Positions 2,476 to 14,641 of a DNA stretch of 16,246 nucleotides are shown piece by piece. The translations under genes were made by a program, and so were the position numbers. The stretch covers positions 1 to 16,246 of the forward strand of contig JAOAAM010000068.1 in NCBI GenBank assembly GCA_026418875.1. Reading direction: 5' to 3'. This DNA is from Gemmataceae bacterium (lineage in GTDB: Bacteria; Planctomycetota; Planctomycetia; Gemmatales; Gemmataceae). How positions within the stretch are numbered: the stretch's first letter is position 1; each line of letters opens with the position of its first letter. The notes under the pieces are model-generated. The model saw only the letters and a program-made list of their open reading frames with translations, was not told the origin of the DNA and did not search any database.

Positions 2476-2601
2476 TTCCATCCACGCGATCGGGTCGCGC
2501 CGGGACCTACACACGCATCGTAGAACAAACTGCTCGACGCCTTGCTTTCCGCGTGTTTCCAGGCTGCTTTGCGAATCCGAGGAGGCCGAGGGCCAAAGCG
2601 C

Positions 2602-4113
2602 ATGTTATCGCAAATTGTGACCCGATTGACGGCTCCGGTCATCGCCGTGAGCCTGTTGCTCCTGGCCGTCGGGACCGGGGCTGCCTGGTACGTGCATCAG
2701 CTGCAAGCGGCAAATGATCGAATTCTCGAGCAACACCTTGCCAGTGTCTGGGCCACCCAAGAACTCGAGGTCGGGCTGCGGGAGGTCCGATCGAGATTGA
2801 ATCGTTTTGTTTACCATCGAAATGAGGAAGCGCTCAAAGGCATCCCAGAGTTACGCGCCAATACGGAAGCGGCGCTGGCCACGATGGAACGCACTGCATT
2901 GACCGAGCGGGAGCTGGATTGGGTGCGGCGGATTCGCAGCGGCTTGGACGAGTTTTACCGCGAGGTGGAACATCTGAGCACCTCCCCGGCTGACATGCGC
3001 CCCCACGGGCAGATCGACCACTTGCTTTATGACGTGATTTTGCCCTTGGCCTCCGACTATCGGGAGGTCAACGAGCATCTTTTCGAGCAGGCGACGCGAT
3101 CGAACCAACAGTCGTCACGAAGGCTGATCCGCGGTTTGTTGCTCTTGGGCATCGGGGGAGCCGCGGGGGGTATCCTCGTCGGTTGGTTCCTGGCACGGAC
3201 CATTCAGCGATCAATCGTTCGCGTGCATGTCCGGCTGCGGGATGCGGCTGGCAAACTGCGCGAGGCGGTGGATTCCGTTCGGGTGGATCGCGGCAAAGAG
3301 CCGGAAGACCTCGGTGTCTTGGCGGAGCGGCTGATCGGTCCGATCAATGAGTTGCTGGAGCGGCTTCAGCGGAGTCGGCAAGAAGTGTTGCATGCCGAGC
3401 AATTGGCCAACGCCGGGCAGATGGCGGCGGGTGTCGCCCATGAGGTGCGCAACCCGCTGACGGCCATCAAATTGCTGGTCCAATCCGCCTTGGACCGCGG
3501 TCCGGATGCCGCCCTCTCCGGCCGCGACCTGCAAGTCCTGGATGAGGAAGTCGCCCGCTTGGAGCGGTTAACGAGTACGTTCCTCGATTTTGCCCGTCCC
3601 CCACGACCCGAGAAGCGCTTGATCGATGTCGCTGAGGTCTTGCAGCGTGTTCTCGAACTGGTCGGCCCCCGTGCCGATCTTCACGGCGTGAACCTCCGCT
3701 GGCAGGCCCAATCGCCCTTACCCCCCATCGAAGGCGACCCCGGACAACTACATCAAGTCCTCTACAACTTAATCATCAATGCCTTGGAAGTCGCTCCTGT
3801 GGGCAGCGACGTGTGGGTCCGCATCGTCGGCCGCTCGGGCGACCATCCCAGTGTCACCATTCAAGTCGAAGATAGCGGTTCCGGGATTCCTAAAGAACTC
3901 GGCGACCGCATCTTCGAGCCGTTCGTCAGCACCAAAGAGACCGGGATGGGCTTGGGGCTGTCGATTTGTCGGCGGGTGGTGGAATCCCACGGCGGCACGA
4001 TTCATGCAGAAAATCGGCCCCAAGGCGGCGCCCGCTTTGTCGTGACGCTCCCAAGCGCGTCGCCAGCCCGGGTTGCCGCGGTCAGGAATGAGGCTCAGCC
4101 ATGTCCAGGTTGA
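2602..4113 (+). CDS. NtrB-like membrane sensor histidine kinase
   Basis: This protein of about 503 residues senses an unknown signal and would phosphorylate the response regulator encoded immediately after it. In order: a short cytoplasmic N-terminus, membrane helix about 11-33, an extracytoplasmic all-helical domain about 34-172 (likely a four-helix bundle), membrane helix about 175-199, a HAMP-like linker, then a HisKA domain with the phosphoacceptor in A-G-V-A-H-E-V-R-N-P-L-T (His280). The HATPase domain has the N box (Y-N-L-I-I-N-A-L-E), the D-S-G-S-G-I-P loop, F-E-P-F and the G-M-G-L-G-L lid. ATG at 2602 is chosen; a frame-compatible TTG at 2542 would add 20 residues that do not look like a membrane-protein start. 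The stop overlaps the activator's start by 13 bases, so the two are translationally coupled. The sensor domain is too variable for a signal to be named. Confidence 0.92.
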   Translation: MLSQIVTRLTAPVIAVSLLLLAVGTGAAWYVHQLQAANDRILEQHLASVWATQELEVGLREVRSRLNRFVYHRNEEALKGIPELRANTEAALATMERTALTERELDWVRRIRSGLDEFYREVEHLSTSPADMRPHGQIDHLLYDVILPLASDYREVNEHLFEQATRSNQQSSRRLIRGLLLLGIGGAAGGILVGWFLARTIQRSIVRVHVRLRDAAGKLREAVDSVRVDRGKEPEDLGVLAERLIGPINELLERLQRSRQEVLHAEQLANAGQMAAGVAHEVRNPLTAIKLLVQSALDRGPDAALSGRDLQVLDEEVARLERLTSTFLDFARPPRPEKRLIDVAEVLQRVLELVGPRADLHGVNLRWQAQSPLPPIEGDPGQLHQVLYNLIINALEVAPVGSDVWVRIVGRSGDHPSVTIQVEDSGSGIPKELGDRIFEPFVSTKETGMGLGLSICRRVVESHGGTIHAENRPQGGARFVVTLPSASPARVAAVRNEAQPCPG

Positions 4114-5513
4114 TTGTGATTGACGACGAACCGAATGTCCTGTACTCGCTGCGGCAAGCCTTGTCCCGCGACGGTTTGGAAGTCGAGACCGCCCAAACCG
4201 CACGCCAAGGGTTGGGACAAATCCGCCAGACGACGCCCGATGCCGTCATCCTCGACGTCCGCCTGCCGGACATGTCCGGCTTAGAGGCATTCGACAAAAT
4301 CCGCGAAGTCGACCCGCAACTCCCTGTCATCGTCATCACGGCATTCGCCACGACCGAGACGGCGATCGAGGCGATGAAGCGCGGGGCCTTCGAGTACCTG
4401 CTCAAACCTGTCGATTTACGCCAACTCCGGCGGGTCGTCGCCCAAGCTCTGGAGGTGTCACGCCATCGGCATGGCCAGCCCGAGGCCGACGTGGTCGAGG
4501 GCAAGCCCGGCGAAATCGTCGGGCAATCCGCGGCCATGCAGGAGGTCTACAAGGCGATCGGACGCACCGCCCCGCAAGATGTCACCGTGCTGGTGGTGGG
4601 CGAGAGCGGCACCGGCAAGGAATTGGTCGCCCGGTCGCTGCATCAGCATAGTCGCCGCGCTTCCGGCCCCTTCCTCGCGATCAACTGTGCTGCCATCCCT
4701 GAACAGCTGCTCGAGAGCGAGTTGTTTGGTCACGAAAAAGGGGCTTTCACCGGTGCCGACCGGCTCCGACCCGGAAAATTCGAGCAGGCCAGCGGCGGCA
4801 CCCTCTTCCTCGACGAAATTGGCGACATGAGCCCCGCCACCCAGGCCAAAGTTCTCCGCCTCCTTCAAGAGCAACGATTCGAGAGACTCGGCGGCACCAC
4901 CACCATCTCCTCCGACGTCCGACTCATCGCCGCCACCAACCAAGACCTCGACGCCCAAGTCGCCGCGGGTCGCTTCCGCCGCGACCTACTGTATCGTCTC
5001 AATGGCTTCACCATCCATCTGCCGCCCCTCCGCCAACGGCTCGAGGACATCCCCGACTTGGTCCAGCACTTTGTCTCCCTATTCAACCGCGAGCATGGCA
5101 AGTCGATCCGCTCGATCCACCCCGAAGTGATCGCCCGGCTCCAACGGCACGATTGGCCCGGAAATGTCCGCGAACTGCAAAGTGCAATCCGCTTCGCCGT
5201 GGTCAACTCCGTCGGCGAAACTTTGACCGTCGAGCACCTTCCCGCCCATCTCCGCGATGCGGAACGCCCCCCCACCGAGCGGGCCAACCCTCTGGATATC
5301 CTCGGCATGGTCGAGGACATGCTCGCCCGCGGCGACAGCGACATTTATCGCAGGGTGAATGATCTGGTCGATCGCGTCGTCATCGAGCGTGTCCTGCGGC
5401 ATGTGAACGGCAATCAGGTGCATGCCAGCGAACGCTTGGGAATCTCCCGAACCACGTTGCGTTCGAGGATCCAAATGCTCGGGATCCCTCCCGTGGCTGA
5501 ATCGAGTGAGTGA
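4101..5513 (+). CDS. NtrC-family sigma-54-dependent response regulator
   Basis: This 470-residue activator has three domains. The receiver domain (about 1-120) has phosphoacceptor Asp52 in V-I-L-D-V-R-L-P-D and Lys in L-L-K-P. The AAA+ domain (about 140-370) has Walker A G-E-S-G-T-G-K-E at 167-174, the sigma-54-contacting G-A-F-T-G-A loop at 214-219, Walker B L-F-L-D-E at 235-239, and arginine-rich sensor motifs. A Fis-type helix-turn-helix lies at about 427-465 (N-G-N-Q-x-H-A-S-E-R-L-G-I-S-R-T-T-L). All motifs needed for ATP-driven opening of sigma-54 promoters are intact. It is co-transcribed with the kinase. Sigma-54-like sites stand before the operon and just after this gene, the best candidates for its targets. 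Confidence 0.96.
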   Translation: MSRLIVIDDEPNVLYSLRQALSRDGLEVETAQTARQGLGQIRQTTPDAVILDVRLPDMSGLEAFDKIREVDPQLPVIVITAFATTETAIEAMKRGAFEYLLKPVDLRQLRRVVAQALEVSRHRHGQPEADVVEGKPGEIVGQSAAMQEVYKAIGRTAPQDVTVLVVGESGTGKELVARSLHQHSRRASGPFLAINCAAIPEQLLESELFGHEKGAFTGADRLRPGKFEQASGGTLFLDEIGDMSPATQAKVLRLLQEQRFERLGGTTTISSDVRLIAATNQDLDAQVAAGRFRRDLLYRLNGFTIHLPPLRQRLEDIPDLVQHFVSLFNREHGKSIRSIHPEVIARLQRHDWPGNVRELQSAIRFAVVNSVGETLTVEHLPAHLRDAERPPTERANPLDILGMVEDMLARGDSDIYRRVNDLVDRVVIERVLRHVNGNQVHASERLGISRTTLRSRIQMLGIPPVAESSE

Positions 5514-5734: not shown

Positions 5735-5856
5735 CTTCACAGGGGACCTTTCACCCCCTCCCGCACGAGTCGATTGCCACCAAGCTACCCGAGTTGCCGA
5801 TTGGCTGCTATCATCGGGCTTTGGTCTCAAGATTAACCCCGCGTCGACGCCTCCCG

Positions 5857-8800
5857 ATGTTCCGCGACCCACAGGGCGAGTTGACACTCTCCCCCACGGA
5901 TTTGGTTCAGTTTCTCGGCTGCCCTCACGCAACGCAGTGGGAAATGAAACACCTGGACGTCCCCCGCTCGGAGCAGAACCGCGCCGCTGCCGATCCCCTC
6001 CTGATCCAAAGGGGCCAACAGCATGAGCAGGAATATCTGACACGGCTGCTCAACCAGGGAAGGCAAATCGCCCAAATTGCTGGTCAGGATGCTTTGAACG
6101 CCACACTGCTTCACCTGCGTGACGGAGTGAAGGTCATCTATCAAGCGGAACTACGCCATGGCCGATGGCTGGGTCGGCCGGACTTTCTCTTCCGCGTAGA
6201 CACCCCGTCATGCCTCGGTCGCCACAGTTATGAACCAGCCGACACAAAATTCGTTCGCTCCGCTCAACCCGAACACATCATCCAGTTGAGCGTCTATGCC
6301 GAGTTGCTCGCCGCCATCCAAGGCATCCGCCCGAAACACATTCACGTGGTTCTCGATGGCTTCCGAACCGAGACTTTCCTCGCCGACGATTTCGCCGCCT
6401 ACGTTCGCCTCGCCCAACGACGGTTGCAACGATTCGTCAAGGGACCGCCCCTCGAAACGATCCCTGAACCCTGCGCTGCCTGCCCCCAATGCGACTGGCG
6501 CGAGCACTGCCAAAAGCTTTGGGAGAACACCAACCACCTCTCCCTTCTCGCCGGCCTACGATCCTCCCAACGGGAGACGCTGCGTGACCATGGGATCCAC
6601 ACCGTGGAAGACCTCGCCCGATGCGATCCCGACAAACCCCTCCGTGGAATGCCCCAACGGACCCTTCGACTCCTCCAAAAGCAAGCCCAACTCCACCTTC
6701 GGCGGCGACAAAATAACGAACCATGCCTGGAGCGACTCGACCCAGTTGCCGGCCGAGGCCTTCAGCGCTTGCCGCCGCCCCAAGATGGCGACCTCTTCTT
6801 CGACATGGAAGGCGATCCGCTCTACCCGAACGGTGGATTGGAATACCTATTTGGTGTCGGCTATTACGAGACGCCATCGGCCTTCGTCTACAGGGCCTTT
6901 TGGGCACACACGCATGACGAAGAACGCCGCGCCTTCGCGCAGTTCATGGCCTTCCTCGAATCTCATTTTCGCCGATATCCCAACGCATTCATCTACCATT
7001 ACAACCATTATGAACCCACTGCCCTGAAGCGCTTGGCGTCTCGCTACCGCCACGGCGAAGACCACTTGGATCAGCTTTTGCGCTTACAGAAATTCGTCGA
7101 TCTTTACCGCATCGTTCGTCAAGCGCTCCTGATTGGCGATTCGAGTTATTCACTCAAAGTGCTCGAACCTTATTACGGTTTCGAACGAAAAGGCATTGTT
7201 GCCACCGCGGCCGACAGTATTATTGTTTACAACCAGTATCGTAATGATCCTGAGGCCAACGCCCATCTCTTGCAGCAGATTGAGGAATATAATCGGATCG
7301 ATTGCGAGTCCACGGCCGCCCTGCGCCACTGGCTTCTCGAATTGCGGCCCCGTGAACTATCATGGTTTGAACCGACGGCCGTCGCTGAGGAGCCGAATCA
7401 GCTGAAGAACCAACAGCAAGCTGAACTTCAGGATCTAATCCAATCTTTGCAGGCGCGAGCGAGCACGGCGGACCATCCCTGCCGACACATGGTCGATCTT
7501 TTGGAATTTCATCGCCGCGAGGAAAAGCCCGCCTGGTGGTCCTACTTCGATCGTCGTGAACAAATGGACGAGGAACTGATCGACGATCTGGACTGCCTCA
7601 TCGGTCTCGAACTTGAAGGAGAGCCAAAACAGGAAAAACAATCGCTTATCTACACCTATCGTTATCCGCCGCAGGAAACAAAAATCCGCGTCGGCGACAC
7701 GGTCAACGCTCTCTCAACATTGTCCGATGAAAATGACTACGTTGGCATCGTGGTCGAACTAAACGAAGCTCAATGCATTATCCGGATCAAGCGAGGCAAG
7801 AAAAGAAGCCCTTTGCCCAGGCAACTCTCGATCGATTCCGGCAAGCCGATCAAAACCGACGTCTTGAGAGAGGCTCTGCGTCGAGTCGCCGAAGATAGCT
7901 TGCACAGTTTTGCCAACTATCCTGTCGCTGGCGAAATCCTGTCTCGGTCATTGCCGAAATTGCGCGGGCGGATCAGCGGCGAGCCGATCCTCCGGGGCAT
8001 GGGTCCAGTGAATCAGGAGGCCTTGGCAGCGGTTGCGGCATTGGACAATTCCTACTTGTTTATTCAAGGTCCTCCAGGAGCTGGAAAAACTCACATCAGT
8101 GCCGATCTGATTGTCGAACTGATGCGCCAAGGTAAGAGGATCGGCGTGAGTGCCAATTCCCATATGGCCATCAACAATCTGCTGAAGAAGGTCGAAGCCA
8201 CTGCCATCGAAAAAGATTTCGAATTCCGTGGGGTCAAAAAGTGCAGTGACGACGCCGACGCGCTGCCCGAATCTCAGTTCATCTCCAATGTCTTCAAAGT
8301 CCCGGAGATTGAGCCGGAATGCGCGTTAATCGCCGGCACCGCCTGGCTTTTCGCCGATGAGAAACAGGAAAAGACGATTGATGTGCTGTTTATCGACGAG
8401 GCAGGTCAAGTCTCGTTGGCAAATGTGATCGCCATGGCCACCGCGGCGAAGAACATCGTTCTCGTCGGCGATCAAATGCAACTGGGGCAGCCCATCCAGG
8501 GGACGCATCCCGGTCAGGCAGGCCAGTCGATCCTGGAGTTTCTTCTCGAGGGGCGTGCCACCGTACCGCCGGAACGGGGAATCTTCCTGGGCGAGACATG
8601 GCGGCTGCGGCCCGAGTTATGTGAGTTTGTATCTCGGGCCTTCTATGAAAGTCGGCTGAAACCGCATGCCTCGACGAGCCAACGGCAGCTTAGGTTTGAC
8701 CACCGCCTCGATGAGCTTCGCACGGCCGGGATTCACTTTCATCCGGTGCATCATGTCGGTTGTTCACAAAGAAGCGAAGCGGAGGCAATGGTCGTCAAGG

Positions 8801-9207
8801 ATTATTACGACAAGCTGTTAGGCCAGACATTCGTGGACCACGGCGATGAGCGACGGCTGACAGAGAAAGATATCCTCGTGGTGACGCCTTACAACGCCCA
8901 GGTCAATTTGCTGAGCAGCCGTCTGCCCCAAGGAGCGCGAGTCGGCACGGTGGACAAGTTCCAGGGGCAGGAAGCTCCGGTGGTGTTGATTTCGATGGTG
9001 GCGTCGAGCGGAGAGGATGTGCCGCGGGGGATCGAGTTTTTGCTCAGTGCCCAGAGGTTGAACGTGGCGGTGTCTCGGGCACAATGTCTGGCGGTGGTGG
9101 TGGCCAGCCCGCGGCTGTTGGCCGTCCCGTGCCGCACCATCGAGCAACTTCGCTTGGCGAACAAGTTTTGCCTGCTGGCCGAATCCGGCGGGGTTACCGG
9201 CAGCTGA
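5857..9207 (+). CDS. TM0106-type RecB-like nuclease / DnaQ-like exonuclease / SF1 helicase fusion
   Basis: This cytoplasmic protein of 1116 residues combines three enzymes. Residues 1 to about 220 are a Cas4/RecB-like PD-(D/E)xK nuclease: Asp109 in G-R-P-D-F, Asp129-Thr-Lys131, then Q-L-S-V-Y-A-E-L-L. Cys22 plus Cys206, 209, 212 and 218 could bind an Fe-S cluster as in Cas4 and AddB. About 310-495 is an RNase H-like 3'-5' exonuclease of the YprB kind: F-D-M-E-G-D-P (Asp316, Glu318), Asn383 and Y-N-R-I-D (Asp482). About 700-1105 is a superfamily 1B helicase: Walker A G-P-P-G-A-G-K-T at 738-745, Walker B D-E at 847-848, V-G-D-Q-M-Q-L, then D-K-F-Q-G-Q-E and the final N-V-A-V-S-R-A motif. The layout matches the TM0106 family of RecB-like putative nucleases. 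ATG at 5857 is chosen; TTG at 5794 would add 21 residues. Neither has a ribosome site. A role in DNA repair or processing is inferred. Confidence 0.88.
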   Translation: MFRDPQGELTLSPTDLVQFLGCPHATQWEMKHLDVPRSEQNRAAADPLLIQRGQQHEQEYLTRLLNQGRQIAQIAGQDALNATLLHLRDGVKVIYQAELRHGRWLGRPDFLFRVDTPSCLGRHSYEPADTKFVRSAQPEHIIQLSVYAELLAAIQGIRPKHIHVVLDGFRTETFLADDFAAYVRLAQRRLQRFVKGPPLETIPEPCAACPQCDWREHCQKLWENTNHLSLLAGLRSSQRETLRDHGIHTVEDLARCDPDKPLRGMPQRTLRLLQKQAQLHLRRRQNNEPCLERLDPVAGRGLQRLPPPQDGDLFFDMEGDPLYPNGGLEYLFGVGYYETPSAFVYRAFWAHTHDEERRAFAQFMAFLESHFRRYPNAFIYHYNHYEPTALKRLASRYRHGEDHLDQLLRLQKFVDLYRIVRQALLIGDSSYSLKVLEPYYGFERKGIVATAADSIIVYNQYRNDPEANAHLLQQIEEYNRIDCESTAALRHWLLELRPRELSWFEPTAVAEEPNQLKNQQQAELQDLIQSLQARASTADHPCRHMVDLLEFHRREEKPAWWSYFDRREQMDEELIDDLDCLIGLELEGEPKQEKQSLIYTYRYPPQETKIRVGDTVNALSTLSDENDYVGIVVELNEAQCIIRIKRGKKRSPLPRQLSIDSGKPIKTDVLREALRRVAEDSLHSFANYPVAGEILSRSLPKLRGRISGEPILRGMGPVNQEALAAVAALDNSYLFIQGPPGAGKTHISADLIVELMRQGKRIGVSANSHMAINNLLKKVEATAIEKDFEFRGVKKCSDDADALPESQFISNVFKVPEIEPECALIAGTAWLFADEKQEKTIDVLFIDEAGQVSLANVIAMATAAKNIVLVGDQMQLGQPIQGTHPGQAGQSILEFLLEGRATVPPERGIFLGETWRLRPELCEFVSRAFYESRLKPHASTSQRQLRFDHRLDELRTAGIHFHPVHHVGCSQRSEAEAMVVKDYYDKLLGQTFVDHGDERRLTEKDILVVTPYNAQVNLLSSRLPQGARVGTVDKFQGQEAPVVLISMVASSGEDVPRGIEFLLSAQRLNVAVSRAQCLAVVVASPRLLAVPCRTIEQLRLANKFCLLAESGGVTGS

Positions 9208-9364: not shown

Positions 9365-10495
9365 ATGACCACTGCAAGTTCTGTCCAGGCGTCGCCAGCC
9401 GCGGCTCCCCGGCGAAGAAAGTTGCCTCCCTGGGTTGGCACGCTGGTCTTGGGTGTCGCGATGACCTTCGGCCTGGCCGTCCTGCTCGCCGCATTTGCAG
9501 GCGTGTTCAAAGACAAGGTGCCCATGGAGGTGCCCGAGCGCCGCAGGGCCTGGGCCGGTGACGAGCCGACGGCGGAAGTCCGGCTGATTAAGCGGCCTCG
9601 CTTCGAGTCGGCAGTTGGGACTGTCCGTGCCGTTCATGAATCCTCCATCGCCTCGAAAATCCTGGCCCGGGTCGTTGAGGTGAACGTCAAGGCCGGTCAA
9701 CCCGTGACCAAGGGCGACGTGGTAGCCCGGCTGGACGATTCGGATTTGCAAGCCCGGCTGAAGCAGGCCCGAGCCGCAGAAGCGGTGGCCGTCGCCGCTC
9801 ATGCCAAGGCGGTGCAAGATCACGAGCGCATCCGTCGCGCGGCCGCCACCGGGGCGGTTTCCTCGCAGGAACTCGATCAAGCCGTGGCGGCCCTGCGCAG
9901 TGCCGAGGCCGAGTTGGAACGGGCCCGCCAAGCCATCAACGAGGCCGAGGTCATGCTCAGCTACGCGACCCTGACGGCTCCCCTGACCGGAGTGGTGATC
10001 GACAAGCGGGTGGAGGTCGGCGACACCGTCGCGCCGGGCCAGATCCTCATGACCGTGTATGACCCGACCCGGCTGCAAATGGTGGCGAGCGTCCGGGAAT
10101 CGCTGGCGTTGCGGCTGAAAGTCGGCGACACCGTGCCAGCCAAGCTCGAATCGCTCAATTACGAATGCACCGCCACGGTGAGCGAGATCGTTCCCGAGGC
10201 GCAGGCCGCTAGCCGCTCGTTCACGGTGAAAGTCACCGGCCCCTGCCCGCCGGGGGTGTACAGCGGCATGTTCGGTCGAATCTTCATCCCGCTGGATGAA
10301 GAGGAGATCATCGTCGTGCCGAAGTCGGCCGTGGTCCGCGTCGGACAGTTGGACATGGTCAACGTCGTCGTCGACGGACGGGTTGAGCGGCGGAGTGTGC
10401 AGTTAGGCCGAAGTTTCAATGGGGAAGTCGAGGTGCTCTCGGGGCTGGTTCCGGGAGAGCGGGTGACGCTGCCCAAGAAAGGAGCTGAGTCATGA
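9365..10495 (+). CDS. RND efflux membrane fusion protein (HlyD/AcrA family)
   Basis: This 376-residue periplasmic adaptor would connect the RND pump encoded next to an outer-membrane channel. A basic N-terminus precedes one membrane anchor at about 23-47. A split biotinyl-lipoyl domain follows (S-I-A-S-K-I-L-A-R-V-V-E-V-N-V-K-A-G-Q-x-V and, after the hairpin, L-x-A-P-L-x-G-V-V), interrupted by an Ala-rich alpha-helical coiled-coil hairpin at about 125-195. Beta-barrel and membrane-proximal domains complete it (Y-S-G-M-F-G-R-I-F-I-P, V-V-P-K-S-A-V, V-L-S-G-L-V-P-G-E-R-V). ATG at 9365 has GGGAG eight bases upstream. The stop overlaps the permease start as ATGA. No outer-membrane channel gene is encoded here, so one must be supplied from elsewhere. 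Substrate unknown. Confidence 0.92.
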   Translation: MTTASSVQASPAAAPRRRKLPPWVGTLVLGVAMTFGLAVLLAAFAGVFKDKVPMEVPERRRAWAGDEPTAEVRLIKRPRFESAVGTVRAVHESSIASKILARVVEVNVKAGQPVTKGDVVARLDDSDLQARLKQARAAEAVAVAAHAKAVQDHERIRRAAATGAVSSQELDQAVAALRSAEAELERARQAINEAEVMLSYATLTAPLTGVVIDKRVEVGDTVAPGQILMTVYDPTRLQMVASVRESLALRLKVGDTVPAKLESLNYECTATVSEIVPEAQAASRSFTVKVTGPCPPGVYSGMFGRIFIPLDEEEIIVVPKSAVVRVGQLDMVNVVVDGRVERRSVQLGRSFNGEVEVLSGLVPGERVTLPKKGAES

Positions 10496-13400
10496 GCCAG
10501 GCGACCTCCAGCGAACGTCCCGGTCACGACGAGGGGATCCTGTCGGCGATTGTGCGGATCTTTCTCGAATCCAACCTCTCGTCGATGCTGATCATTTTTT
10601 CGCTGCTGGTCGGTGCGGCGGCCTTGCTCGTGACGCCTCGGGAGGAGGATCCGCAAATCATCGTTCCCCTGGCGGACATTCACGTCCAGGCCCCGGGCCG
10701 ATCCGCCGCCGAAGTGGAACAACTCATCGCCACGCCGTTGGAACGGATCCTGTATCAGATCGATGGGGTGGAGTACGTCTACAGCATGTCGCGGGAAAAC
10801 CACGCCATCATCACGGTTCGTTTCTACGTAGGTGAAGACCGGGAGCGGAGCCTGGTGAAGATTTTCAAAAAATTGGACGAACATTTGGACGTAGTTCCGC
10901 CGGGGGTGACGGGCTGGGTGGTCAAGCCGGTGGAAATCGACGACGCCCCGATCGTCACGCTGACCCTCACGGGAGCCGATAGCCACACCCTGCGGCGTGT
11001 CGGGGAAGAGGTGGTGCAACGGCTGTCGGGGGTGGCCGATGTGTCTCGGGCTTTTGTCATTGGTGGGGAACCGCGAGTCGTCCGCATTCAACCGGACCCG
11101 GACCGTTTGCAAGCGTATGGCCTGAGTCTCTTGGAGCTTCGTCGATCCTTGGCCGGAGCGAACATTACGATGCCGGCCGGCGACTTCACCCGCCAGGACA
11201 GCGTGGCCCGTGTCGACGCCGGGTTGCTCCTGACCCGGGCGACACAGTTGGGCGAATTGGTGGTGGGCGTCGATCAGGACCGACCGGTCTTTTTGAAGGA
11301 TGTCGCCGTCGTCACCGATGGTCCGGACGAGGTGGTGAGCCATGTCCGTCACGGTTGGGGTCCGGCCCGGGGCTTCGCGGCCCATCCCGGCGACCCCGGC
11401 ACGCTGGTCGGCGGAGAGACTCCGTCCTCCACCGACGCCGTCTCGCTGCCGGCGGTCACCATCGCGATTGCCAAGAAGAAGGGCAGCAACGCCGTCGCCG
11501 TGGCTCAGAACGTCCTGGACGCGGCCGAACAACTGCAACGCGAGGTCTTGCCCGACAACGTGCAGATGGTGGTGACGCGGAACTACGGGCGAACCGCCGA
11601 TGAGAAAGTCAACGAGTTGATCGAGGCCCTCGCCGTCGCCGTCCTCATCGTCATCGCGCTCCTGACGCTAAGCCTGGGCTGGCGGGCCGCGATCGTCGTG
11701 GCGGTCGCCGTTCCCGTCGTCTTCGGTCTGACCCTCGCGGTCAATCTCCTGTTCGGCTACACGATCAACCGCGTGACCCTCTTCGCACTGATCCTGGCCC
11801 TGGGCCTGCTGGTGGATGATCCGATCGTGGACGTGGAAAACATCGAGCGGCATTTCCACCAACGGAAAAAGGCCTCCCCCCGAATCGTCATGGAAGCCGT
11901 CGCCGAGATTCGCCCGCCGCTCATCAGTGCGACCCTGGCGGTGATCGTCAGCTTCCTGCCGATGTTTTTCATCACGGGGATGATGGGGCCTTACATGGCC
12001 CCGATGGCCTTGAATGTCCCGGTCGCGATGTTCCTCTCGATGGTGGTTGCGTTCACGATTACCCCGTGGTTGAGCTATCGCTTGCTGCGGGGGACGGCGG
12101 AGAAAGCGGCGGCCCACGGCGATTCGCAACATGGCGGATCAGCCCACAGCGATTCGCAGCAGGGCGGATCAGCCCACAGCGGTTCGCAACATGGCGGGAG
12201 GGGGGAAGCCGGCACCATGCCGGATGCGCACGACAGTTACGACCCCGAGGAATTGAAGCGGACCCTACTCTACCGCATCTTCCGCCCGCTGATGGGGCCG
12301 CTGATCACGTCGCGCCGCCGGGCCAGCATCTTCCTGTTGCTGATGACGCTGTTGACCGTCGCTGCGATGGGGCTGGCCGCGACCCGCTCCGTGCCGCTGA
12401 AGATGCTCCCGTATGACAACAAGAACGAATTCTTGCTGATTCTCGATGCCGACGAGGGCACGACCTTGGAACGAACCGATGCCGCGGTCCGCGAATTCGA
12501 GGCGTACCTCTCCAGCGTGCCCGAAGTGACGGACTTCATCAGCTACGTTGGCACGCCCGGACCGGTGGATTTCAACGGATTGGTGCGGCACTACTACCTG
12601 CGGGAAGGCCCGCACCTGGCTGAGATCCGCGTCAATCTCGTCGCCAAGAAGCACCGTTCGCAACAGAGCCACGGCATCGGATTGCGGCTGCGAGACGACC
12701 TAACGGCCATCGCCGAGAAACATCGCCTCGCTTTGAAGATCGTCGAACTGCCGCCCGGGCCGCCGGTGATCGCCTCGGTGGTGGCGGAAGTCTATGGCCG
12801 GCCCGACCACACCTACGACGACATCCTGGCCGCCGCCCGAATCGTCGCGAAACGATTCCATGCCGAACCGGGATTGGCCGACGTGGACGACGTGTCCGAG
12901 GCTCCAGCAACCAAGCTTGTCTTCACCACCGATCAGGAAAAGGCTGCTTTGGCCGGTGTCAGCGTCGCCGAAATCGCCGACACCATCCGCATGGCCTTGG
13001 GCGGCGACCGGGAAATGACGCTCCGGGTCGAGGGTGAGCGAAACCCGCTTCGCATCGTCGTTCGATTGCCACGCGGCCTGCGCTCTCATCCTGCCGATCT
13101 GGGACTGTTGCAAGTCAAAGGCGCTCGCGGTCAGTTAGTGCCTTTAGCTGAACTCGGCCACTGGGACAAGACCCGGACCGACCAGACGATCTATCACAAG
13201 AACCTGGAGCGGGTCGCCTACGTCTTTGCCGAGACCGCCGGACGTCCCCCGGCGGAGTGCGTCATCGATCTCATCGCCGACCAGACCACGCCACGAGGTC
13301 CGGGTCCTGAAGGCGGGTTCGTCGCCGACGCCCCGGCCCGACCCGTCGACGAGCGAACCTATTTTCGCAATGGCGGCGGGATCGCATGGGCGGTTCCCGA

Positions 13401-13989
13401 AGGGATACGGGTCAAGTTCTCGGGCGAGGGAGAGTGGAAGATCACCTTGGACGTCTTCCGCGACTTGGGCCTGGCGTTCGGTGCAGCCCTGTTGATGATC
13501 TACGTCATCCTCGTTGCCCAAACGCACTCCTTCATGGTGCCGCTCATCGTCATGTTGGCGATCCCCCTCACGGTCTTGGGCGTGATGCCGGGGTTTTACC
13601 TGCTCAGCGGCGTGTTCGGTCAAACCGTCGGCGGCTACGCCGACCCGGTCTACTTCACCGCCACGGCCATGATCGGCATGATCGCTTTGTCCGGCATCGT
13701 GACGCGCGACTCGATCATCCTCGTGGATTTCATCCAACATTCCGTCAAGCGAGGGCGCACCTTGTTCGATGCCATCATGGAAAGCCGGGTCGTTCGTTTG
13801 CGGCCGATTTTGCTCACCGCCGGAGCGGCGATGCTTTCCAGCATCCCCATCACGCTCGATCCGATCTTCTCCGGCTTAGGCTGGTCGCTGATCTTCGGCC
13901 TGCTGGCCTCCACCCTGTTCACCCTCTTCGTCGTCCCCGTGACTTACTGGCTGATTTACCACCGCTCCACAACTGGAGAGAATCATTGA
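10492..13989 (+). CDS. RND-family efflux permease with His-rich repeat insert
   Basis: This 1165-residue inner-membrane pump uses the proton gradient to expel a substrate. It has the two-fold RND layout: TM1 at about 31-49, first porter domain, TM2-6 about 370-530, TM7 about 610-630, second porter domain, TM8-12 about 995-1155. TM4 carries the proton-relay pair Asp442-Asp443 in L-V-D-D-P-I-V-D-V-E-N, more like drug (HAE) than heavy-metal (CzcA) pumps, though the V-D-V-E-N ending is unusual. Oddities are a Gly/Pro-rich insert in the first porter domain (about 285-320), another in the second (about 934-964), and a His-rich tandem repeat (541-570) in the cytosolic loop between halves. It is a little longer than typical RND pumps because of these. 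The stop codon TGA lies inside the -35 box of the arsR promoter. Control by ArsR is inferred from the shared operator. Confidence 0.93.
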   Translation: MSQATSSERPGHDEGILSAIVRIFLESNLSSMLIIFSLLVGAAALLVTPREEDPQIIVPLADIHVQAPGRSAAEVEQLIATPLERILYQIDGVEYVYSMSRENHAIITVRFYVGEDRERSLVKIFKKLDEHLDVVPPGVTGWVVKPVEIDDAPIVTLTLTGADSHTLRRVGEEVVQRLSGVADVSRAFVIGGEPRVVRIQPDPDRLQAYGLSLLELRRSLAGANITMPAGDFTRQDSVARVDAGLLLTRATQLGELVVGVDQDRPVFLKDVAVVTDGPDEVVSHVRHGWGPARGFAAHPGDPGTLVGGETPSSTDAVSLPAVTIAIAKKKGSNAVAVAQNVLDAAEQLQREVLPDNVQMVVTRNYGRTADEKVNELIEALAVAVLIVIALLTLSLGWRAAIVVAVAVPVVFGLTLAVNLLFGYTINRVTLFALILALGLLVDDPIVDVENIERHFHQRKKASPRIVMEAVAEIRPPLISATLAVIVSFLPMFFITGMMGPYMAPMALNVPVAMFLSMVVAFTITPWLSYRLLRGTAEKAAAHGDSQHGGSAHSDSQQGGSAHSGSQHGGRGEAGTMPDAHDSYDPEELKRTLLYRIFRPLMGPLITSRRRASIFLLLMTLLTVAAMGLAATRSVPLKMLPYDNKNEFLLILDADEGTTLERTDAAVREFEAYLSSVPEVTDFISYVGTPGPVDFNGLVRHYYLREGPHLAEIRVNLVAKKHRSQQSHGIGLRLRDDLTAIAEKHRLALKIVELPPGPPVIASVVAEVYGRPDHTYDDILAAARIVAKRFHAEPGLADVDDVSEAPATKLVFTTDQEKAALAGVSVAEIADTIRMALGGDREMTLRVEGERNPLRIVVRLPRGLRSHPADLGLLQVKGARGQLVPLAELGHWDKTRTDQTIYHKNLERVAYVFAETAGRPPAECVIDLIADQTTPRGPGPEGGFVADAPARPVDERTYFRNGGGIAWAVPEGIRVKFSGEGEWKITLDVFRDLGLAFGAALLMIYVILVAQTHSFMVPLIVMLAIPLTVLGVMPGFYLLSGVFGQTVGGYADPVYFTATAMIGMIALSGIVTRDSIILVDFIQHSVKRGRTLFDAIMESRVVRLRPILLTAGAAMLSSIPITLDPIFSGLGWSLIFGLLASTLFTLFVVPVTYWLIYHRSTTGENH
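12112..12201 (+). repeat. Three tandem 30-bp in-frame repeats encoding a His/Ser/Gly-rich linker
   Basis: Units at 12112-12141, 12142-12171 and 12172-12201 each encode ten residues of the form A-H-(G/S)-(D/G)-S-Q-(H/Q)-G-G-(S/R). Units 1 and 2 differ at three bases. The translated region lies between TM6 and TM7 of the RND pump and adds five histidines within 30 residues. Confidence 0.9.
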
Positions 13990-14043: not shown

Positions 14044-14364
14044 ATGGGGAAGACAAAAACCGTGGCCGACATGGGATTGATCGACCTGTCGACGCTGGAG
14101 CAAGCGGCGGAATGCCTCAAGACATTGGCTCACCCTCACCGCTTGCGCATCGTGCAGATGCTCCTGCGGGGTCGATACACGGTCGGCGAGTTGGCCGAGG
14201 CGTGCGACATCCCCAGCCACATGGCCTCGGAACATCTGCGACTGATGCAGCGCTGCGGCCTGCTGGCCTGTGAAAAGGACGGTCGGCGTGCGTATTACCG
14301 CATCGAGGAACCGCACCTGACCGACATCATGCGCTGCATCGAGTCACGGTTCGGCAGACGTTGA
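14044..14364 (+). CDS. ArsR/SmtB-family transcriptional repressor
   Basis: This 106-residue winged-helix protein would repress its own promoter and the efflux operon until an effector binds. The family core is present: C-L-K-T-L-A-H-P-H-R-L-R-I-V-Q-M-L (24-40), recognition helices in Y-T-V-G-E-L-A-E-A-C-D-I-P-S-H-M-A-S-E-H-L (45-65) and the wing K-D-G-R-R-A-Y-Y-R-I (78-87). The classical As site E-L-C-V-C is replaced by E-L-A-E-A-C, so arsenic sensing in that form is unlikely. Cysteines at 24, 54, 71, 76 and 98 and the His residues could form a metal or thiol-redox site; which one cannot be told from sequence. ATG at 14044 has GGGAGG nine bases upstream. The operator 28 bases before the start and its copy before the efflux operon define the likely regulon. 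Confidence 0.93.
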   Translation: MGKTKTVADMGLIDLSTLEQAAECLKTLAHPHRLRIVQMLLRGRYTVGELAEACDIPSHMASEHLRLMQRCGLLACEKDGRRAYYRIEEPHLTDIMRCIESRFGRR

Positions 14365-14461
14365 TCGAAAGACGACCCGACCTGTTGACCCGAAGCTCGG
14401 GGGATTGACCGTGGCCTGTGAATCACCGTTGAATCGAACCGGAACACTGCGAGGACGCCTG

Positions 14462-14641
14462 ATGGAACTCCTGTTGCCGTTGGTCGTGCTGGTGGTTTGG
14501 TTTGTCTTACAAGCGTGGCTGCTGCCGAAACTTGGTGTGCCGACCTGAATGTCGGGCGCTTGTCGGCCGAGTTCGGCCCCACCCAAAACGAAGTCTGAAT
14601 CAGCTCCCGCCAGCCCGACGGAACCGGAAGCCCATCGCTGA
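14462..14641 (+). CDS. Small membrane protein with in-frame UGA: candidate selenoprotein (59 aa), or 28-aa peptide
   Basis: ATG at 14462 has GAGGA six bases upstream. Residues 2-21 form one hydrophobic helix, followed by P-K-L-G-V-P-T and a UGA at codon 29 (14546-14548). If UGA is a stop, the product is a 28-residue membrane peptide ending at 14548. If UGA is read as selenocysteine, the frame continues with M-S-G-A-C-R and a Pro/Ser/Glu/Lys-rich tail to a second UGA at 14639, giving 59 residues with U29 and C34 as a possible redox or metal-binding pair. A hairpin at 14565-14578 sits where a bacterial SECIS would be. The ORF is 97 bases after arsR with no terminator between, so it probably shares the ArsR-controlled transcript, which ends at 14686-14736. 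I do not recognise a named family. The ORF itself is fairly likely; selenocysteine is a hypothesis. Confidence 0.5.
14546..14578 (+). promoter_or_regulatory. Candidate bacterial SECIS element after the in-frame UGA
   Basis: Downstream of UGA (14546-14548) a perfect stem GGCCG (14565-14569) with CGGCC (14574-14578) encloses AGTT. The apical loop begins about 20 nt after UGA and has G within its first two bases. This agrees with the loose bacterial SECIS rules as I know them (loop about 16-37 nt after UGA, G early in the loop). In GC-rich DNA such a hairpin can occur by chance. Confidence 0.35.

Follow-up and report, generated by a model that had tools for sequence, protein, structure and literature searches.

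Comparison with described selenoproteins and sulfide-responsive operons

The use of selenocysteine (Sec) in sulfane-sulfur chemistry has precedent, because selenoprotein forms of rhodanese, CoA-disulfide reductase (CoADR), type III sulfide quinone reductase (SQR) and YeeE/YedE are already tabulated (PMC13188914, Table 1). Those selenoproteins have named domains, whereas the candidate described here would be a single-helix protein of 59 residues that belongs to no Pfam or NCBIfam family. A likeness is also seen to the Tso selenoproteins (TsoA with its LULAxC motif, TsoB, TsoC, TsoX and TsoY, with the regulator TsoR), which have a regulator of the ArsR type and count a rhodanese-type protein among them, but searches of 34 members of the candidate family with the Tso models gave nothing at E ≤ 1. 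Finally, the Escherichia coli ygaVP operon, encoding the ArsR-family regulator YgaV and the rhodanese YgaP, resembles the arrangement in eight relatives of the candidate, where an ArsR gene, the candidate gene and then a YgaP-like rhodanese and/or CoADR gene follow one another on one strand. The available part of PMC9774250 mentions no counterpart of the candidate between ygaV and ygaP and, unlike in ygaVP, no rhodanese gene lies near the candidate in the window. The window is the whole stretch of DNA that was analyzed, 16,246 nucleotides from a Gemmataceae bacterium (assembly GCA_026418875.1, contig JAOAAM010000068.1).

The candidate gene and its product

The candidate gene (14462-14641, forward strand) comprises 59 codons, including an in-frame UGA at codon 29, plus a stop, and its extent follows from the sequence and from homologs that span the UGA. 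Direct reading bore out the original prediction of a well-started frame interrupted by UGA: a Shine-Dalgarno-like GAGGA (14451-14455) precedes the ATG (14462-14464) by 6 bases, and 28 codons are followed by the UGA (14546-14548), 30 sense codons and a terminal TGA (14639-14641). The read-through product, MELLLPLVVLVVWFVLQAWLLPKLGVPTUMSGACRPSSAPPKTKSESAPASPTEPEAHR (59 residues), consists of one membrane helix, the segment LPKLGVPT, and a short polar tail that holds Sec29 and Cys34. An AlphaFold2 model built on 121 sequences places the helix at residues 4-23 (codons 14471-14530) and has high confidence there only, with low confidence in the tail and a whole-model pLDDT of 65.7. Charge does not settle the topology, as K or R occurs within seven residues after W19 in 52/81 and the mean net N-terminal charge is +0.41.

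Conservation across the UGA codon

A six-frame search with the 59-residue product over 99 genomes (its own and relatives) gave matches at E ≤ 0.1 in 51. Among the 31 matches below 1e-6, 29 contain an internal TGA, accompanied by a TAA in two cases, and the remaining two are free of stops. We read 30 loci from the stronger matches, leaving outside the count weaker rows of which some have an internal TAA or TAG, and found codon 29 to be TGA in 27, Cys in two (G093 and G076) and Trp in one (G092). A phylum-wide profile search found the family in at least 30 of 393 genomes, a lower bound because only 16 candidates per genome were scored, and contributed 24 new loci. Over the 54 loci read from both protein searches, codon 29 is TGA in 42, Cys in 11 and Trp in one; TAA and TAG, which would be expected among homologs simply stopping at this place, occur in none. 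A DNA pattern scan of one public genome per species returned at least 119 stretches, 80 of them taken as loci, with TGA in 62, TGC in 10, TGT in 8 and TGG in none among the matches listed; the pattern required TGN at codon 29 together with G32 and C34, so by design it is blind to TAA and TAG there. It recovers 24 of the 30 loci of the six-frame search, and at least two of its loci (L089 and L128) duplicate relatives already in hand. Cys homologs at the UGA position, anticipated in the original prediction, thus make up 11/54 of the loci read and 18/80 of the pattern loci among the matches listed.

The residues past the UGA are likewise conserved, with the motif U-[ML]-S-G-x-C recurring in homologs. 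In alignment A1 (29 rows, G092 left out), W19, L21, P22 and position 29 are invariant, while G32 and C34 are each kept in 28 rows; Cys34 (codon 14561-14563) is thereby the likely partner of Sec29. Two TGA members from the phylum search (G161 and G196) have no Cys at the usual place. The homolog in G092 (L039/L068), which has Trp in place of Sec and a TGA close to its N-terminal end, looks like a decaying copy; searches of that genome found no selA, selB or tRNA-Sec. We also considered that UGA is read as Trp, and rejected this because the adjoining RND and ArsR genes end in TGA and only one of the non-TGA homologs has Trp, against 11 with Cys.

A bSECIS-type hairpin downstream of the UGA

The window contains a bSECIS-type hairpin, GGCCG-AGUU-CGGCC (14565-14578, forward strand), with 5 bp formed by GGCCG (14565-14569) and CGGCC (14574-14578) around the loop AGUU (14570-14573). 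Its loop lies 21 nt past the UGA and its folding energy is -11.0 kcal/mol in a hairpin scan for which published bSECIS constraints were coded for this analysis. The predicted GC hairpin is therefore present with the number of pairs and the spacing described, but its G is the second loop base and not the first, a placement that the bSECIS model permits. The window hairpin by itself is not above chance, since 65 of 200 dinucleotide shuffles of the 55 nt fold as well (z -0.44).

Across the family the hairpin stands out clearly. In 84 distinct TGA loci the median best energy is -12.25 kcal/mol versus -8.5 for codon shuffles, -7.5 kcal/mol is reached by 78/84 loci versus 302/504 shuffles, and 42 loci beat all six of their own shuffles, with 12 expected. 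The 21 non-TGA loci (20 Cys, one Trp) have medians of -9.0 versus -9.1 when shuffled, and none beats all six. A stricter definition (five consecutive pairs, a loop of 3-5 nt, G in the first two loop bases and a spacing of 16-24), whose ranges were chosen after the first scan had been seen, selects 78/84 TGA loci versus a mean of 6.4 and a maximum of 14 over 500 codon shuffles, so that a SECIS-type element is a trait of the TGA family as a whole. Applied to the non-TGA loci, the same definition selects 4/21, with a shuffle mean of 1.8 and a maximum of 7. Among 31 loci whose loop starts at offset 20-22, a subset that was selected for pairing, the five stem positions are each filled by three to five different pair types.

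Selenocysteine machinery

Genomes with TGA and non-TGA forms from the six-frame and phylum searches were compared for matches to selA, selB and tRNA-Sec. These genomes are related to each other and hence not independent, the tRNA-Sec match of the candidate's own genome is excluded since ARAGORN calls it tRNA-Ser, and the remaining tRNA-Sec matches rest on search score. Within these bounds, the 42 TGA genomes have selA over the cut-off in 37, selB in 36, tRNA-Sec in 35, all three in 30 and at least one in 42, and the 12 genomes with Cys or Trp forms have none of the three over the cut-off. Restricted to selA or selB, the comparison is 41/42 versus 0/12, with G054 the TGA genome that has tRNA-Sec alone. 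As background, selA is over the cut-off in 205/393 genomes of the phylum. The UGA form thus tracks the Sec machinery.

In the candidate's own genome, for which the original prediction had asked after the Sec genes, the picture is mixed: selA is present (contig C799, 557.6 bits), but profile and tRNA searches found no selB, tRNA-Sec (selC) or selD in an assembly that is 83% complete and split into 816 contigs. The five best tRNA-Sec matches were put to ARAGORN and proved to be tRNA-Ser and tRNA-Leu, the SelB-like matches read as IF-2 and EF-G-like proteins, and the SelD-like match read as ThiL-like. A selB search at 1e-40 gives some match, including matches of EF-Tu strength, in 93 of the 99 genomes and none in this one, which suggests that universal genes are missing from the assembly too. 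A second, divergent UGA candidate is found in the same genome at C570 2783-2896 (L201, E 0.00155), reading ...APVUVSGSCGPSSAPVRK; it keeps the S-G-S-C-G-P-S-S-A-P tail and has a similar hairpin, GGGCCGAGTTCGGCCC, after its UGA motif.

Taken together, the occurrence of TGA, Cys or Trp but never TAA or TAG at codon 29 in 54 loci, the retention of G32 and C34, the hairpin and the match with Sec genes argue that the UGA29 protein is very probably a Sec protein, as judged from sequence comparison. The incomplete machinery of the assembly and the non-significance of the window hairpin alone could instead be read as signs of an ordinary stop, with a 28-residue peptide ending at the UGA and the rest due to chance; this is extremely improbable given the conservation past the UGA, the Cys homologs, the lack of TAA/TAG and the family-wide hairpin and machinery match. 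A different reading, in which the family is a true selenoprotein elsewhere and the gene is a leftover in a genus that has partly lost its Sec machinery, draws on the finding that selA is all that was detected of selA, selB and tRNA-Sec both here and in G001, a 75% complete assembly of the same genus. We regard it as quite improbable, since both assemblies are partial, the hairpin and motif are intact, and the second UGA candidate keeps both.

Family status and distribution

The original prediction could name no family for the product, and our searches agree. Neither Pfam nor NCBIfam yields a family for the window protein at E ≤ 10. Over 34 members no family exceeds the cut-off: the best NCBIfam E-value is 0.0029 (one member, with no family shared by more than one) and the best Pfam E-value is 0.032 (one member, with no family in more than two). 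PDB sequences gave no match to the family profile at E ≤ 1. In a protein database 386 relatives are found at E ≤ 1e-3. None of the 120 listed carries a Pfam domain, those with names are called hypothetical proteins, and when they are aligned together with the window protein, position 29 is C throughout (Sec being written as C). The motif is absent from a 2026 table of 119 prokaryotic selenoprotein families (PMC13188914, in the part available), and titles and abstract starts in the open-licence literature gave no description of the family. A new selenoprotein family is thus very likely on sequence grounds.

Record titles of the matches listed name planctomycetes, deltaproteobacteria/Desulfuromonadales, verrucomicrobia, acidobacteria, a zixibacterium, a spirochaete, a myxococcote and cyanobacterial/Obscuribacter MAGs. 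One Cys form (L129) comes from a MAG record titled Bordetella parapertussis (HRS-HS12-bin-180), a doubtful title for such a bin. Gene callers would cut UGA forms to about 28 residues at the UGA, which makes the family easy to overlook. Bacterial selenoproteomes would gain a common member with it, and it offers a very small protein in which to ask why Sec is preferred to Cys in sulfide and persulfide handling.

Genomic neighborhood

In the window, the candidate lies downstream of genes for an MFP, the RND periplasmic adaptor (9365-10495; TIGR01730, 202.9 bits), an RND efflux permease (10492-13989; PF00873, 475.5 bits) and, just upstream of the candidate, an ArsR/SmtB-family regulator (14044-14364; NF033788, 82.9 bits, cut-off 55), all on the same forward strand. 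The original prediction had described the ArsR regulator and the RND pump. The regulator scores 49.7 bits against the BigR model (cut-off 155) and 40.2 bits against the TsoR model (cut-off 115). YgaV responds to sulfide and its sensor pair is Cys31 and Cys98 (PMC9774250, as far as available). The YgaV sensor sites mapped on the window ArsR are not Cys, a mapping made through residue ranges of a PDB match in which the numbering may be offset. Twelve same-strand ArsR proteins share another Cys set (C24, C54, C71 and C98), with L043 truncated before C24.

The setting in the wider family was examined at 111 loci (113 less two repeats) by comparing gene density within 2.5 kb, measured to the nearest edge, with the rest. 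The families compared were picked for recurrence within 5 kb, which favors near matches, and kinship among loci is uncorrected, so the following density ratios are to be read with both in mind. Identities of the neighbors come from Pfam and from PDB matches to YgaP, MBL-rhodanese, ETHE1, CoA-disulfide and CoA-persulfide reductases and sulfide-quinone reductase. With models that overlap through shared domains, rhodanese is near in 34/111 loci (ratio 11.5), persulfide dioxygenase (PDO)-like proteins in 28 (9.4) and CoADR in 28 (8.9). YgaP-TM is near in 24 loci (14.4), SQR-like proteins in 8 (9.6) and TauE/SafE in 7, with none far. Any of six sulfur families is found within 2.5 kb in 41/111 loci (14/20 Cys loci and 27/91 others), leaving 70 loci with none, the window among them. 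ArsR is near in 20 loci (ratio 8.0), thioredoxin in 10 (14.4), RND in 12 (4.8), MFP in 8 (1.9) and ECF sigma factors in 11 (4.8); 54 loci have none of the sulfur families, ArsR, thioredoxin or RND. The RND ratio depends on the counting, as midpoint counting hides long genes and gives 0.6. Narrower limits of 1 kb and 1.5 kb leave the sulfur families enriched 4.7-19-fold and give RND ratios of 1.0 and 4.8, respectively. The predicted efflux setting is real in the window, and efflux under ArsR control may play a part, but this is not the commonest setting of the family, with RND near in 12/111 loci versus sulfane-sulfur genes in 41/111.

Possible function

Three lines of evidence, namely the sulfur genes near 41/111 loci, the thioredoxin neighbors in 10 and the thioredoxin fusions of Cys forms, lead us to favor, from genomic context, a sulfane-sulfur or thiol membrane relay for the family. 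As to the fusions, L144 (minus strand) has a Cys form that is continuous with a thioredoxin domain within a single 162-residue ORF, where a Met before the thioredoxin part makes separate translation possible. A search with the first 45 residues of L144 returned six proteins, and five of these (P0124-P0128) have a thioredoxin domain. Since P0124 has the same sequence as the query, the other four are further examples of the fusion, one of them only 56% alike.

Sequence comparison supports the reading of UGA29 as Sec, directed by the hairpin about 21 nt downstream. According to the relay proposal, the tail would be cytoplasmic, and Sec29 and Cys34 would act as a redox pair on the surface of the membrane. 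There the protein could accept sulfane sulfur (or electrons) and pass it to soluble partners such as a YgaP-type rhodanese, CoA-disulfide/persulfide reductase, persulfide dioxygenase or thioredoxin, with sulfide and persulfide handling as the outcome; in the window it would do so next to ArsR and an RND pump. For the window protein, we give a sulfane-sulfur or thiol relay role roughly an even chance, and the combination of a Sec protein with such a membrane relay is a similarly balanced call. More tentative, and on balance doubtful, is a specific version in which the one-helix anchor holds Sec29/Cys34 as a seleno-persulfide (R-Se-SH) carrier of a membrane-to-cytosol sulfur relay, receiving sulfur from sulfide:quinone reductase, for example, and handing it to rhodanese, CoA-persulfide reductase, persulfide dioxygenase or thioredoxin.

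The thioredoxin links could also be explained by a membrane protein that is fed by thioredoxin and acts in general thiol/disulfide chemistry or peroxide reduction, without being particular to sulfane sulfur. Most uncharacterized selenoproteins are probably redox proteins (PMC13188914, in the part available), which is in keeping with such a role, and the fusions and the 14.4-fold thioredoxin enrichment fit it as well. Nevertheless we hold it to be unlikely, since rhodanese, PDO-like, CoADR and SQR-like proteins are specific to sulfur, and all but the SQR-like ones neighbor the gene more often than thioredoxin does.

Metal(loid) efflux with the RND pump, the sole context in the window, is a possible role there, and in its fuller form, a Sec protein of metal(loid) or selenium resistance, Sec29 and Cys34 would bind a soft metal ion or metalloid at the membrane and pass it to the pump under ArsR control. 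The genes directly upstream and the RND enrichment in the family speak for this, as does a review according to which the majority of transporter components that are selenoproteins have been implicated in resistance to metals or metalloids (PMC13188914, in the part available). On the other hand, sulfane-sulfur genes also lie close by in 9 of the 12 RND loci, the usual RND partner MFP is only 1.9-fold enriched at 2.5 kb, and the window RND fits both multidrug and metal families below their cut-offs. We therefore rate metal transfer to the pump as rather unlikely, and continue to favor the sulfane-sulfur or thiol relay.

Other features of the loci

A 90-residue CxxC protein with no Pfam match, which we call zf-HC2-like, is near in 14/111 loci (ratio 8.4). 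It occurs in L062, L079, L084, L113, L126, L135, L145, L146 and others, sometimes with an ECF sigma factor. The remainder of the window encodes a truncated heavy-metal P-type ATPase (2-769), a histidine kinase (2542-4113), an NtrC-type regulator (4101-5513) and a TM0106 RecB-like nuclease linked to part of a helicase (5794-9207). At the contig end (16228-16246) the sequence reads CTGTCTCTTATACACATCT, which we take to be a Nextera transposase end left on the assembly as adapter; the translations MCIRDR and DVYKRQ near other contig ends may reflect the same kind of adapter.
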